A stretch of DNA of 64,000 nt, taken from Pseudomonas saponiphila. GTDB taxonomy: Bacteria; Pseudomonadota; Gammaproteobacteria; Pseudomonadales; Pseudomonadaceae. Location: contig NZ_FNTJ01000001.1 of the NCBI RefSeq assembly GCF_900105185.1, positions 620,001 to 684,000 on the forward strand. The letters run 5' to 3'. Every line of letters begins with the position of its first letter. Positions within the stretch are counted from its first letter, which is position 1. Position numbers and translations under genes: made by a program. Under the pieces are notes generated by a model, which was not told the origin of the DNA, did no database searches, and saw nothing but the letters and a program-made list of their open reading frames with translations. Shown here piece by piece: positions 3,520 to 36,834 of the stretch.

Positions 3520-3615
3520 GTAGGAGCCGGCTTGTCGGCGAAGCGGTCTTAAGGTCTTTTCGCTGGCAAGCCAGCTCCTACACAAGCCAGCCCCTACACA
3601 AGCTGGCTTCTGCAC
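3520..3615. repeat. REP palindrome cluster
   Basis: GTAGGAGCCGGCTTGTCGGCG is followed by the inverse-oriented CGCTGGCAAGCCAGCTCCTAC and then two degenerate half copies (CAAGCCAGCCCCTAC and AAGCTGGCTTCTG). This is the common Pseudomonas REP family. It fills the gap between ybeZ and miaB. Confidence 0.85.
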
Positions 3616-3625
3616 AAGTCAGTTC

Positions 3626-4954
3626 TTACGATAACAGCGAGCCGCGCAGTGAGTGGGGTTGCGCCGAGTCGATATGCACGTCGGCGAATTGGCCAATCAG
3701 GGTGGGATCGTCGCAACGGAAGTTGACGATCCGATTGTTCTCGGTGCGGCCCTGCAATTCGCCCGGATCTTTCTTGGAGTAGTCGGTCACCAGGATGCGC
3801 TGGGTCGACCCGACCATTTGTCGGCTGATTTCAAACCCTTGCTGGTTCAGGCGGTGTTGCAGCGCGTTCAGGCGCTCCTTCTTCAGTGCTTCCGGCGTGT
3901 CGTCGGCCAGGTCGGCGGCCGGAGTGCCCGGGCGCTGGCTGTAGACGAAGGAGTAGGAGAAGTCGAAACCGACGTCTTCGATCAACTTCATGGTCTGCTG
4001 GAAGTCTTTTTCCGTCTCGCCAGGAAAACCGACGATAAAGTCCGAGCTGATGCAGATTCCCGGTACCGCCGCTCGCAGTTTGCGCAGCTTGGACTTGTAC
4101 TCCAGAGCCGTGTGATTGCGTTTCATCGCCGCCAGAATCCGATCCGAGCCCGATTGCACGGGCAGGTGCAGGTGCTTGACCAGTTCCGGCACTTCGGCGT
4201 GGGCCTGGATCAAACTGTCGGAGAATTCCAATGGGTGCGAAGTGGTGTAGCGAATCCGCTCGATGCCATCCACCGCGGCAACTACGCGGATCAGCTCGGC
4301 CAGGTCGGCCAGGCGACCGTCATGGGTCTGGCCCCGGTAGCCATTGACGTTCTGGCCAAGGAGGGTGACTTCGCGCACGCCGTTTTCCGCCAGGTGGATG
4401 ATTTCGGCAATCACGTCGTCAAATGGCCGGCTGACCTCTTCGCCCCGGGTGTAGGGCACGACGCAGAAGGTGCAGTACTTGCTGCAGCCTTCCATGACCG
4501 AGACATAGGCACTGGGGCCGTCGATGCGCGGCTCGGGCAGATGGTCGAACTTTTCGATTTCCGGGAACGAGACATCCACTTGCGGCAGCTTGCTGATGCG
4601 CGCGGCATCGATCATTTCCGGCAGGCGGTGCAGGGTCTGCGGGCCGAATACCACGTCCACATAGGGCGCGCGATCGCGGATGGCCGCGCCTTCCTGACTG
4701 GCCACGCAGCCGCCGACGGCAATCACCATCTCCGGATTGGCCAGTTTCAGCTCGCGCCAGCGACCCAGCTGGGAGTACACCCGATCCTGGGCGCGCTCAC
4801 GAATCGAGCAGGTATTGAGCAGGATGACATCCGCGTCTTCGGCACGTGCGGTGACTTCCAGGGCCTGATGTTCACCCAGGAGGTCCACCATGCGCGAGCT
4901 GTCGTACTCGTTCATCTGGCAACCGTGGGTTTCGATGTAAAGCTTCTTGGCCAT
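3626..4954 (-). CDS. miaB: tRNA-2-methylthio-N6-dimethylallyladenosine synthase MiaB
   Basis: A 442-residue radical-SAM methylthiotransferase that converts i6A37 to ms2i6A37 in tRNAs reading UNN codons. The N-terminal UPF0004 domain begins [14 protein letters not shown] and supplies cysteines for the auxiliary [4Fe-4S] cluster. The radical-SAM CxxxCxxC motif is CSKYCTFC, and a TRAM domain ends the protein. The ATG at 4954 ([11 protein letters not shown]) is preferred over the upstream in-frame start, whose extra 18 residues are not family-like. Transcribed away from the DUF1820 gene. Confidence 0.97.
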
Positions 4955-16589: not shown

Positions 16590-16828
16590 GGTTAAAAATT
16601 GCGCAAGAGGTGTTTTTGCAAGCAATCTTCGCAATCCGCTGTCGTCGGCCCAGGCCTATTCTTATCACCAGAATCACTGCCCGGACCTAGAGTCCACTGC
16701 GGCCCGCCGAATCAGGCCTGCCGCGGCCGCCAATCCCACAGGGTTGAGCCGGCCCCCGGGCTACACCCTGTCCAGAAGACGGAGTGAGGTGAGCCGGCGT
16801 CAAAAGCGTCGAGCACGGACAAAATCTC
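16590..16828 (+). ncRNA. Candidate small RNA or leader in the Lrp/DUF6515 gap
   Basis: A 413-base non-coding stretch (16545-16957) ends in a strong intrinsic terminator at 16829-16857 that lies before the next gene, so something is transcribed rightwards and stopped there. Inside is a clear stem: ACAGGGT (16738-16744) pairs exactly with ACCCTGT (16765-16771), with a nested AGCC/GGCT. I do not recognise a known RNA family (not 6S, tmRNA, RNase P or the Rsm RNAs as I know them). The 5' end is a guess. The region could instead be a leader with attenuation for the DUF6515 gene. Confidence 0.4.
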
Positions 16829-16857
16829 AAAGGGCGGCCGACGGGCCGCCCTTTTTT
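16829..16857 (+). terminator. Intrinsic terminator upstream of the DUF6515 gene
   Basis: GGGCGGCC, a GACG loop and GGCCGCCC are followed by TTTTTT. The preceding AAA can pair with the first Ts. This is the clearest intrinsic terminator in the window, and it has no gene immediately upstream on its strand. Confidence 0.85.
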
Positions 16858-34077: not shown

Positions 34078-35325
34078 TTAAGGCTTGCCGCTGCTTTTCA
34101 GCCATTCGAGCATTCCCCGGCCGGCTCGATGGCCGCTGGCAAAGCAGGCGGTCAGCAGATAACCGCCGGTGGGCGCTTCCCAGTCGAGCATTTCCCCGGC
34201 GCAGAACACTCCGGGCAGGTGCTTGAGCATCAGTCGTTCATCCAGCGCTTCGAAGACCACGCCGCCGGCGCTGCTGATGGCTTCGTCCAGTGGGCGGGGC
34301 TTCACCAGCGTCAGGGGCAGCGCCTTGATCGCCGCCGCCAGGCGCGCCGGGTCGTTGAAGGTGTCGGCGCCCGTCAGCTCTCGCAGCAACCCCGCTTTCA
34401 CCCCCTCGATCCCCAACTGACTCTGCAGGTGCTTGGCCATGGAGCGCGAGCCGCGGGGTTTGGCCAGGGCGGCCTGGACCTTGTCCCGGGGTTTGCCCGG
34501 CAGCAGGTCGATATGAACGGTCGCTTGCCCGTGCTGCTGGATGCTGTCGCGGATCGGCGCCGACAGGGCATAGATCAGGCTGCCTTCGATGCCGCTGGCG
34601 GTGATCACGCATTCGCCCAGCCGGGGGATGTCGTCATTCAGGCCAATGGCCACGTTCTTCAGTGGCGCTCCGGCGAATTTGCTGCGCAGCAACTCGCTCC
34701 AGGCACTGACTTCAAATCCGCAATTGCTTGGTTGCAGGGGGGCTACCTGCACGCCGCGCTGTTGCAGCAGGGGCAGCCAGGCACCATCGGACCCCAGGCG
34801 CGACCAACTGCCACCGCCCAATGCCAGCAGGGTGGCATCGGCCTCTACCGCGCGTTCGCACTCGGGATGCTGGATGCGCAGGCTGCCGTCGGCATTCCAG
34901 CCCAGCCAGCGGTGCCGGGTGTGGATAACCACCCCGGCGTCGCGCAGGCGCTTGAGCCAGGCGCGCAGCAGTGGCGCGGCCTTCATGTCGGTGGGGAACA
35001 CCCGCCCGGAGCTGCCGACGAAGGTGTCGATACCCAGGCCGTGAATCCATTGGCACAAGGCCTCGGCACCGAATTCCCGCAGCAGCGGGGCGATGTACGG
35101 GGCCCGCTCGGCATAGCGCGAGAGAAAGGCCGGGTAGGCTTCGGAGTGGGTGATGTTCATGCCTCCGACCCCGGCCAGGAGGAACTTTCTGCCCACTGAC
35201 GGCATGCCGTCGTACAGGTCGACCCGAACGCCGGCCTGGCTCAGTACTTCTGCGGCCATCAGGCCGGCGGGGCCGCCGCCGATGATCGCGACGTGGTGGG
35301 GCGTGGAAGAGTGCGATGCAGTCAT
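34078..35325 (-). CDS. HI0933/BaiN-like NAD(P)/FAD-dependent oxidoreductase
   Basis: A 415-residue flavoprotein. The FAD-binding Rossmann motif HVAIIGGGPAGLMAAEVL is at residues ~12-30. The HI0933-family stretch GRKFLLAGVGGMNITHSE follows, and the C-terminal FAD motif is GEMLDWEAPTGGYLLTACFA. Family members are annotated as TIGR03862 or BaiN-like; physiological substrates are mostly unknown. The start is the ATG at 35325 (MTASHSS), which drops a 27-residue non-conserved extension. Confidence 0.9.
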   Translation of the reverse strand: MTASHSSTPHHVAIIGGGPAGLMAAEVLSQAGVRVDLYDGMPSVGRKFLLAGVGGMNITHSEAYPAFLSRYAERAPYIAPLLREFGAEALCQWIHGLGIDTFVGSSGRVFPTDMKAAPLLRAWLKRLRDAGVVIHTRHRWLGWNADGSLRIQHPECERAVEADATLLALGGGSWSRLGSDGAWLPLLQQRGVQVAPLQPSNCGFEVSAWSELLRSKFAGAPLKNVAIGLNDDIPRLGECVITASGIEGSLIYALSAPIRDSIQQHGQATVHIDLLPGKPRDKVQAALAKPRGSRSMAKHLQSQLGIEGVKAGLLRELTGADTFNDPARLAAAIKALPLTLVKPRPLDEAISSAGGVVFEALDERLMLKHLPGVFCAGEMLDWEAPTGGYLLTACFASGHRAGRGMLEWLKSSGKP

Positions 35326-35399
35326 GGCAGGGGCGGGGCTGAGGGAATAGGCCGGGCATTCTACCCGAGGCGCAGGGGCCTTGCTGAATCGGTGATGCC

Positions 35400-35904
35400 T
35401 GATCAAAAACTAGGCACTGGGCTGGAAGCCTTGTGCTACCTGGCCTGGCGCGACTTTCGCGCAGGTTGTCCACAGGCGGCTCCACAGGGATTGGGGGTAA
35501 GCGGCCCACACCAGGATGACAACCTGATGAAACTGATCAAAAACTAGTCGATTGTCTGCGGGCCTTGTATTGCGTGGGCTGTGGCGACTTTCACGCAGGT
35601 TGTCCACAGGCGGTTCCACAGCGATTGGGGGTAAGCGCTGGGGTGATGCCGAGCGCCCGATGCGGCTGATCAAAAAAGCAGCACCGTGCTGCAAGCCTCG
35701 CCGATAGCGGACTGCAGCGTGTTTCACGCAGCTTATCCACAGGCGGCTCCACAGGGATTGGGGGTAAGCGACCCACAACACTGTGACCGTCTGATGGCAT
35801 TGATCAAAAAACAGGCGATTGCTTGCAGCCCGCGGACGGCAAGGGCTGGAGGGGCTTTCTCCCAGGTTATCCACAAGCGGCTCCACAGCGGATGTGGGTA
35901 AGGC
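35400..35904 (+). repeat. Four-copy 134-bp tandem array with DnaA-box-like sequences
   Basis: Two elements recur at fixed distance. TGATCAAAAA starts at 35400, 35534, 35667 and 35801. TTGTCCACA or TTATCCACA starts at 35466, 35600, 35733 and 35867, always 66 bases later. The period is 134, 133 and 134 bases. The last two boxes equal the consensus DnaA box TTATCCACA; the first two differ by one base. Each box is followed by GGCGG, a second TCCACAG and GATTGGGGGTAAGC (weakened in copy 4). The DNA between the elements has diverged strongly, yet the spacing is kept. The period is not a multiple of three, so the array is not coding. It fills the gap between the flavoprotein and deacetylase-like genes. 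Confidence 0.9.
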
Positions 35905-35913
35905 CGCCGGGGT

Positions 35914-36834
35914 TCAGTAGCAGCCTGAGGACTCCCAGACCCGCTGTGCACTGTGATGGAGGATGCCGTGGCGCCGGGCCAGGGCCTGGCGGTCCTTGCT
36001 GTAGCCGCCGCCGATCACGCCGAGCACCGGAATGTCGCGGCCCAGGCAATGGCGCATGACCCGTTCGTCGCGCTCGGCCACACCGGCATCGGTGAGCTTG
36101 AGGTAGCCCAGGGCGTCGTCCCGGTGCACGTCGACCCCGGCGTCGTACAGCACCAGATCGGGCTTATACAGCGGCAGCAGGTAGTTGAGGCTGTCGTCCA
36201 CCACCTTGAGGTAGTCGGCGTCGCCCATGCCCATGGGCAGCGGGATATCCCAGTCGCTCTGGGCCTTGCGTGCGGGGAAGTTCTTTTCACAGTGCAGCGA
36301 GACGGTCACCGCGTCGGGGGTATGTTGCAGGATCCGCGCGGTGCCATCGCCCTGGTGCACGTCGCAGTCGAAGATCAGCACTCGCCCCACGCGCCCGCTT
36401 TGCAGCAGGTAATGGCTGATCACCGCCAGGTCGTTGAAGATGCAGAACCCCGCCGGGTAGTCGTAGTGGGCGTGATGGGTGCCGCCGGCCAGGTGACAGG
36501 CCAGGCCATGCTGCAGCGCCTTTTCGGCCGTCAGCAGGGAGCCGCCGACAGCCCGCACCGTGCGCCGGGCCAGGGCTTCGCTCCAGGGCAGGCCGAGGCG
36601 CCGCTGGTCTTCCCGGGACAGCTCGCCGCTCATGTAGCGTTCGATGTAGGCCGGATCGTGGGCCAGGGCGAGGATTTCCGCCGGGCACAGTTCGGGGCGC
36701 AGCAGGTCGGCGTCGCGGGTCAGGCCGCTGTCCACCAGGTGGTCGCGCAACAGGCGGAACTTGTCCATGGGGAAGCGGTGTTCCGGTGGAAACTCGGGGC
36801 TGTAGTCGTCGTGATAGATCAGTGGCAATGACAT
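35914..36834 (-). CDS. Histone deacetylase/acetoin utilisation family protein
   Basis: A 306-residue class IV-like deacetylase-fold enzyme. It has the active-site His pair GGTHHAHYD, the metal-binding FDCDVHQGDGTA with Asp and His ligands, YDAGVDVHRDD, and the late GGGY motif with the catalytic Tyr. It probably removes acyl groups from proteins or small amines such as polyamines; the substrate is not indicated. The stop lies 9 bases from the DnaA-box-like array. Divergent from the GNAT gene by 75 bases. Confidence 0.92.
   Translation of the reverse strand: MSLPLIYHDDYSPEFPPEHRFPMDKFRLLRDHLVDSGLTRDADLLRPELCPAEILALAHDPAYIERYMSGELSREDQRRLGLPWSEALARRTVRAVGGSLLTAEKALQHGLACHLAGGTHHAHYDYPAGFCIFNDLAVISHYLLQSGRVGRVLIFDCDVHQGDGTARILQHTPDAVTVSLHCEKNFPARKAQSDWDIPLPMGMGDADYLKVVDDSLNYLLPLYKPDLVLYDAGVDVHRDDALGYLKLTDAGVAERDERVMRHCLGRDIPVLGVIGGGYSKDRQALARRHGILHHSAQRVWESSGCY

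Follow-up and report, generated by a model that had tools for sequence, protein, structure and literature searches.

A tandem array of DARS-like DnaA-box units, each with a candidate Fis-binding position, in Pseudomonas saponiphila

The array and its setting

The window, a 64,000-nucleotide stretch of the Pseudomonas saponiphila genome, contains a gene for a TIGR03862 family flavoprotein, with the rhlE1 helicase gene on its far side, and a neighbor that has no NCBIfam family at E≤0.001 and presumably codes for a histone-deacetylase-like hydrolase. Between the two lie four head-to-tail noncoding units of ~100 bases each, spanning 35399-35902 (Table 1). A preliminary description of this DNA had placed TTGTCCACA at 35466 and 35600, TTATCCACA at 35733 and 35867, and TGATCAAAAA at 35400, 35534, 35667 and 35801; these coordinates are exact, as are the 66-base offset (start to start) from TGATCAAAAA to the box in every pair and the period of 134/133/134 bases. 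Tandem Repeats Finder independently delineates an array of 2.8 copies of 134 bp, at 35399-35777. The view that the array is noncoding is likewise retained: it lies between two genes, and a 158-aa ORF within it is taken as a chance occurrence because the period is not a multiple of three.

From base composition, 505 bp would be expected to contain 0.003 copies of TTRTCCACA and 0.0001 of TGATCAAAAA by chance. The genome as a whole (G000) has 180 copies of TTRTCCACA versus 56 of its reversed control, and 19 of TGATCAAAAA versus two. TTRTCCACA occurs within 150 bp of eight of these 19 (four in the window and four elsewhere) and near none of the other 11. Elsewhere in the window (16599-16852) is a match to the Pseudomonas sRNA P24 (253 bits).

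Table 1. Features of the array and its flanking genes, in window coordinates
Feature	Position	Strand	Remark
Flavoprotein gene, TIGR03862 family	34078..35325	-	539.3 bits; start is the ATG used for the query
Unit 1 (flavoprotein-gene end)	35399..35501	-	R1 71.0 bits, window excluded from model
Unit 1 Fis-type site GCCTAGTTTTTGATC	35401..35415	-	pattern match
Unit 1 box III TTGTCCACA	35466..35474	+	
Unit 1 box II TGTGGAGCC	35478..35486	-	
Unit 1 box I TTACCCCCA, opposed	35492..35500	-	2 mismatches to TTWTNCACA
Unit 2	35532..35635	-	R1 72.7 bits
Unit 2 Fis-type site GACTAGTTTTTGATC	35535..35549	-	pattern match
Unit 2 box III TTGTCCACA	35600..35608	+	
Unit 2 box II TGTGGAACC	35612..35620	-	
Unit 2 box I TTACCCCCA	35626..35634	-	
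Unit 3	35665..35768	-	R1 73.4 bits
Unit 3 Fis-site position, GCTGCTTTTTTGATC	35668..35682	-	fails loose Fis pattern
Unit 3 box III TTATCCACA	35733..35741	+	
Unit 3 box II TGTGGAGCC	35745..35753	-	
Unit 3 box I TTACCCCCA	35759..35767	-	
Unit 4 (deacetylase-like-gene end)	35800..35902	-	R1 70.9 bits
Unit 4 Fis-type site GCCTGTTTTTTGATC	35802..35816	-	pattern match
Unit 4 box III TTATCCACA	35867..35875	+	
Unit 4 box II TGTGGAGCC	35879..35887	-	
Unit 4 box I TTACCCACA	35893..35901	-	1 mismatch
Flanking gene without NCBIfam family at E≤0.001	35914..36834	-	

Anatomy and conservation of the unit

Read along the minus strand, the unit comprises box I (TTACCCMCA), 5 bp, box II (TGTGGARCC), 3 bp, box III (TGTGGAYAA), a weak box IV and a Fis-type palindrome, which begins 59 bp past the start of box III and has TGATCAAAAA as one of its halves. 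The gene-strand consensus across the units of the flavoprotein locus (locus A) is TTACCCACA-ATGCC-TGTGGAACC-GCC-TGTGGATAA. What had been described as a second TCCACAG is box II of each unit, and the GATTGGGGGTAAGC-like block reported next to it includes a third, opposed DnaA-like box (TTACCCCCA; TTACCCACA in unit 4). The recognition of this opposed box I as such, of the weak box IV and of the palindrome is new here. The weak box, TGAGnGAAA, lies two bases past box III and is present with at most two mismatches in 52/57 locus-A units; between it and the Fis-type site is a degenerate inverted repeat, CTGCAGGCC..GGCCTGCAG. Within the window, box I has two mismatches in three of the four units and box II has at least two, at its far end, in all four.

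Eighty flavoprotein loci were fetched from named records, and 78 were examined once two on short contigs (L111 and L120) had been dropped. With presence scored on boxes II and III only, the unit is found at 45 of the 60 Pseudomonas-named loci and at none of the 18 others, and the 66-base offset is constant at the fetched loci wherever both exact motifs are present. Aligned on box III, the 57 locus-A units, those of the window included, are gap-free from -26 to +75, with conservation falling outside these limits. These units were picked by boxes II and III alone, with box I left unused; all 57 have an opposed box I at 5 bp when up to two mismatches are allowed, and 46 when only one is, and no other tested position of box I gave more than 1/57 at up to one mismatch.

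At +59, the loose Fis pattern GnnYRn5YRnnC matches 54/57 locus-A units versus 0.006 per position in the same loci; the units that fail are L047, L083 and unit 3 of the window, where three of four match. G+59 and C+73 are invariant in all 57. The Fis consensus is given as GnnYAnnnnnTRnnC in PMC8682772, and the half-site is common to Fis-A7 (TTGTTTCATTTTTGATCCAG), a footprinted Fis site of P. putida described in PMC5612765. Judged by its sequence, the +59 palindrome is likely to be a Fis-binding site and is treated below as a candidate.

Other readings of the conserved segments were considered and set aside. RNAalifold on 47 units returned four pairs and zero compensatory changes, that is, no conserved RNA fold, and Rfam at the gathering threshold gave no match within the array; an RNA element was dropped on these grounds. 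In the case of an intrinsic terminator (hairpin plus T-run), the T-run turns into an A-run in L090, L091, L094 and L096. As for an IHF site at TTGATC, inspection shows its right half to be variable (AACC, GTAC, GAGC), with G+59 and C+73 fixed.

Distribution across genomes

The preliminary description had proposed a genome search for the two-part unit in Pseudomonas. Our model R1, from which the window and Pseudomonas sp. LD120 units were held out and in which the L067 units were cut from five to three, recovers the four window units at 71-73 bits. With E-values that are rough for both R1 and the broader model R2 owing to shortened calibration, R1 matches 59/59 genomes of the genus at E≤0.01 and 38/116 of the order at E≤0.001, and R2 matches 163 of 187 gammaproteobacterial genomes at E≤0.001 and none of the remaining 24, the own genome being included in each count. 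When R2 was run over the fetched loci (762,612 bases), every match at E≤0.1 fell at a DnaA-box site; its 62 matches there are 57 locus-A units, two in L042, and Escherichia coli DARS1, DARS2 and datA. The L042 locus of the own genome has a further unit-like match at 3547-3649 (near C1:1643.6 kb; R2 31 bits).

From the class we inspected the best 29 loci, one each from 29 of the 163 matching genomes; these were chosen by model score, which biases the counts, and they show the 5/3 trio in 28/29 and the Fis pattern in 22/30 aligned units. In the outgroup units shown, box II is mostly the strong TGTGGATAA, as in DARS1. Outside the window, too, most units are intergenic, but an ORF of at least 80 aa runs into the unit at 3/18 class loci (L232, L235 and L247), and ORFs overlap slightly with the unit at the own-genome loci L025, L027 and L028. 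A literature search on DnaA reactivation, conducted mostly at the level of titles, found no title on DARS in Pseudomonas.

Chromosomal position and copy number

Thirteen complete Pseudomonas genomes contain 117 units in 62 loci, of which 53 fall in the first 40% of the ori-ter arm and 47 at 10-30%, with a median of 22%; these genomes share ancestry, so that a positional KS p-value overstates independence. In six of the 13 (G005, G010, G019, G036, G046 and G049), the loci number exactly five and flank dnaA on either side at distances of 0.5-1.0 Mb, distance signs following contig orientation and three genome lengths having been rounded. G015, with six loci, and G017, with four, are similar; G003 has two additional weak loci at 1.5 and 2.0 Mb, G029 departs in having its loci 0.8 to 2.4 Mb from dnaA on one side, and G012, G014 and G041 show other layouts. 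The own genome has two loci on the dnaA contig, at 0.69 and 0.82 Mb from dnaA. On the E. coli arm, datA lies at 20%, DARS2 at 41% and DARS1 at 66%; the Pseudomonas loci are hence nearer to oriC than either DARS, close to the position of datA, and restricted in most of the 13 genomes.

The flanks of 26/29 loci from nine other genomes each match by blastn exactly one of the own-genome loci B-E, the exceptions being L205 of G041 and L206 and L208 of G012; of the 40 paralogue loci fetched, the 11 from genomes G140 and G164 did not enter this comparison. LD120 and the window have four units in common. Window and LD120 orthologues are closer than paralogues in the core (identity 0.97-1.00) and in +9..+58 (0.78-0.90), though not always in the Fis segment. 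Because orthologous units are more alike than paralogous ones, the four-unit array probably predates the split of the two lineages. Copy number varies elsewhere: P. chlororaphis PCL1601 has five units at about 257 bp, P. sichuanensis has two, and L205 (G041, C1:1112500-1116000) has seven in ~1.2 kb with spacing alternating between ~168 and ~194 bp. The flanks of L205 match none of the own-genome loci B-E.

At least 24 of the 180 genomic TTRTCCACA copies fall in 41 kb of the own genome (C2:266355-307517; L029 and L030) beside dnaA (C2:310600). In this cluster, R1 finds no unit at E≤1, and R3 gives partial weak matches only.

Comparison with DnaA-box loci of E. coli

Both DARS1 and DARS2, taken from strain MG1655, have a 9-5-9-3-9 core with box I opposed, and the trio I(+)-5-II(-)-3-III(-) of the Pseudomonas unit has the same layout. 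The DARS1 core reads TTATCCACT-ATTCC-TGTGGATAA-CCA-TGTGTATTA. According to a review (PMC5742627), what the two DARS have in common is their equal spacing and the opposed orientation of box I. We scanned ten E. coli DnaA loci and the dnaA/oriC locus of the own genome for an opposed trio over 121 spacing pairs (gaps 0-10; at most three mismatches in total and two in each box): it is found in DARS1 and DARS2 only, both at 5/3, and is absent from datA, from E. coli nrdA, polA and purH, and from the own dnaA/oriC locus. The Pseudomonas units have three sequence-level attributes of a DARS: three DnaA boxes with I opposite to II and III, 5- and 3-bp spacing and, for the window array, an intergenic position. 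The Fis site of the DARS2 subtype is present as a sequence pattern (54/57 locus-A units; 3/4 in the window). The adjacency to dnaA that marks oriC is lacking, dnaA being on a different contig from the window.

A position matrix of the locus-A core ranks DARS1 first and DARS2 second among 51,796 windows, in 26 kb picked so as to contain DARS1, DARS2 and datA. R2, which has no E. coli sequence among its training units, gives DARS1 27.4 bits (E 1.6e-7), followed by datA at 15.6, polA at 14.6, and DARS2 at 13.6, level with a dnaA-upstream site. Since the full model places DARS2 below datA and polA, it does not set this site apart. A core-only model gives DARS1 19.5 bits; the DARS2 core itself is not among the matches listed, which include partial II/III matches in datA, nrdA, oriC/mioC, polA, purH and a second DARS2 site. 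The DARS1 flank from +24 to +52, one of five segments compared, is similar in register to the Pseudomonas unit (it ranks 37th among 51,832 windows, with a shuffle p of 0.0008); no such likeness is seen for DARS2 (p 0.22), and the loose Fis pattern is missing near +59 in DARS1. By sequence comparison, then, DARS1 stands out, with DARS2 linked through core geometry only.

DARS1 (bioD-uvrB) thus shares with the window array the core, the opposed box I and an overall length of ~100 bp (101 bp according to PMC5742627), but is single-copy and has box II, rather than box III, as its strong box. DARS2 (rppH-mutH) shares the core geometry but is 455 bp long with IHF sites and several Fis sites; its activation by Fis is reported (PMC4245941, PMC8682772). 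Like the Pseudomonas units, datA is a DnaA-box locus near oriC, with a partial R2 match, but it lacks the opposed trio and, as described in PMC5742627, has an IHF site between its boxes, for which the 3-5 bp between boxes of one Pseudomonas unit leave no room. Boxes II and III also form a tandem pair with the 3-bp spacing of the double DnaA box, a pair that on its own is common among E. coli DnaA targets as surveyed in PMC11317965; the Pseudomonas unit differs in its additional opposed box I at 5 bp and fixed Fis-type site.

A probable DnaA-reactivation element and its alternatives

We consider it fairly probable that the array is a tandem amplification, in four units, of a DARS-like element. 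At the level of sequence, the DARS-like reading of the preliminary description is supported by the geometry, by conservation at the locus and by the model hits to DARS1. DnaA would bind at box I and, on the other side of the 5-bp gap and pointing toward box I, at boxes II and III; the weak box IV would probably be occupied too. By analogy with E. coli DARS, head-to-head contact would loosen ADP from ADP-DnaA, and the freed DnaA could then be recharged with ATP ahead of the following initiation. Centered 62 bp, or about six helical turns, from the center of box III, a Fis dimer may confer responsiveness to growth phase. DnaA and Fis occupancy, nucleotide exchange and an effect of copy number on initiation are what we infer from this arrangement. 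The genome itself encodes DnaA, Fis and Hda (288.6 bits to TIGR03420). Regulatory inactivation of DnaA (RIDA) by Hda yields ADP-DnaA that requires recycling, and the presence of Hda implies such a pool here.

The most serious competitor, though an unlikely one, is a datA-like titration or inactivation site, a sink whose units would soak up DnaA after fork passage and thereby delay re-initiation, the array adding binding capacity. What speaks most against reactivation, and in favor of titration, is the ori-proximal position: 47/62 loci lie at 10-30% of the arm and would double early, as expected of a sink, and datA lies at 20%. Tandem amplification would also raise titration capacity, the own genome has at least 24 lone boxes no more than 45 kb from dnaA, and ori-proximal box density in E. 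coli has been interpreted as titration (PMC12371093). However, a simple sink has no need of a fixed Fis site, of an indel-free 100-bp frame or of a box I that is opposed and spaced by exactly 5 bp, and datA has no opposed trio. A DnaA-reactivation site best fits the geometry and conservation of the trio and the Fis-type site coupled to it, and both roles could hold.

That the units act as DnaA/Fis-controlled promoters or operators of their neighbors (the flavoprotein gene here; priA, polA or nrdA elsewhere) appears distinctly improbable. In its favor, a gene that we take, from a motif, to be PriA-like adjoins the element in 9/29 best class loci (L228, L237, L238, L244, L246, L247, L248, L253 and L254), three of these being confirmed by NCBIfam, and polA, nrdA, lon and rsmA adjoin others. 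Among these, nrdA and polA are named DnaA targets (PMC11317965). Yet the flavoprotein gene occurs without the unit in 33/78 fetched loci, E. coli nrdA, polA and purH have no opposed trio, and the neighbors differ among the own-genome loci: flavoprotein and deacetylase-like; ABC ATPase and YigZ family; RarD; and proteins without a family at E≤1e-20. That the units are an ordinary repeat, dispersed or mobile, or else a relict origin is very improbable indeed. Several units per genome and a variable tandem copy number are what a repeat would show, but the shared flanks of 26/29 loci indicate that units stay in place, the window/LD120 orthologues are more alike in the core than in +9..+58, and Rfam has no match in the array at the gathering threshold. 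With 4-11 matches per complete genome (E≤0.001), recurring loci and a restricted distance to dnaA in most genomes, the units do not behave as the genome-wide repeat family that the preliminary description had named as the outcome that would count against it. Its suggestion of an origin relict is disfavored by the absence of the opposed trio from the own dnaA/oriC locus.

A wider scenario, which we offer tentatively and hold somewhat less probable than its converse, extends the DnaA-reactivation reading to an ancestral gammaproteobacterial site: a rigid ~103-bp module with an opposed trio, a weak fourth box and, at +59, a Fis site. E. coli DARS1 would be a decayed descendant of this module. In Pseudomonas it would have expanded into a network of some five loci, with around nine units in all, located to either side of oriC, and initiation would be tuned via tandem copy number. 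So widespread a module would offer defined sequences for testing DnaA recharging in Pseudomonas and other gammaproteobacteria, and it would bear on the DARS1 flank, the in vivo role of which is called undetermined in the review cited above (PMC5742627). The natural variants with one, two, four, five and seven units per locus allow one to ask whether site dose sets the timing of initiation.

Separately, the DnaA-family search of the own genome (L011-L013) gave ~103 equal-scoring matches, and the three copies compared are identical over >2 kb. This sequence is probably a heavily amplified mobile element, which we take to be IS21-like.
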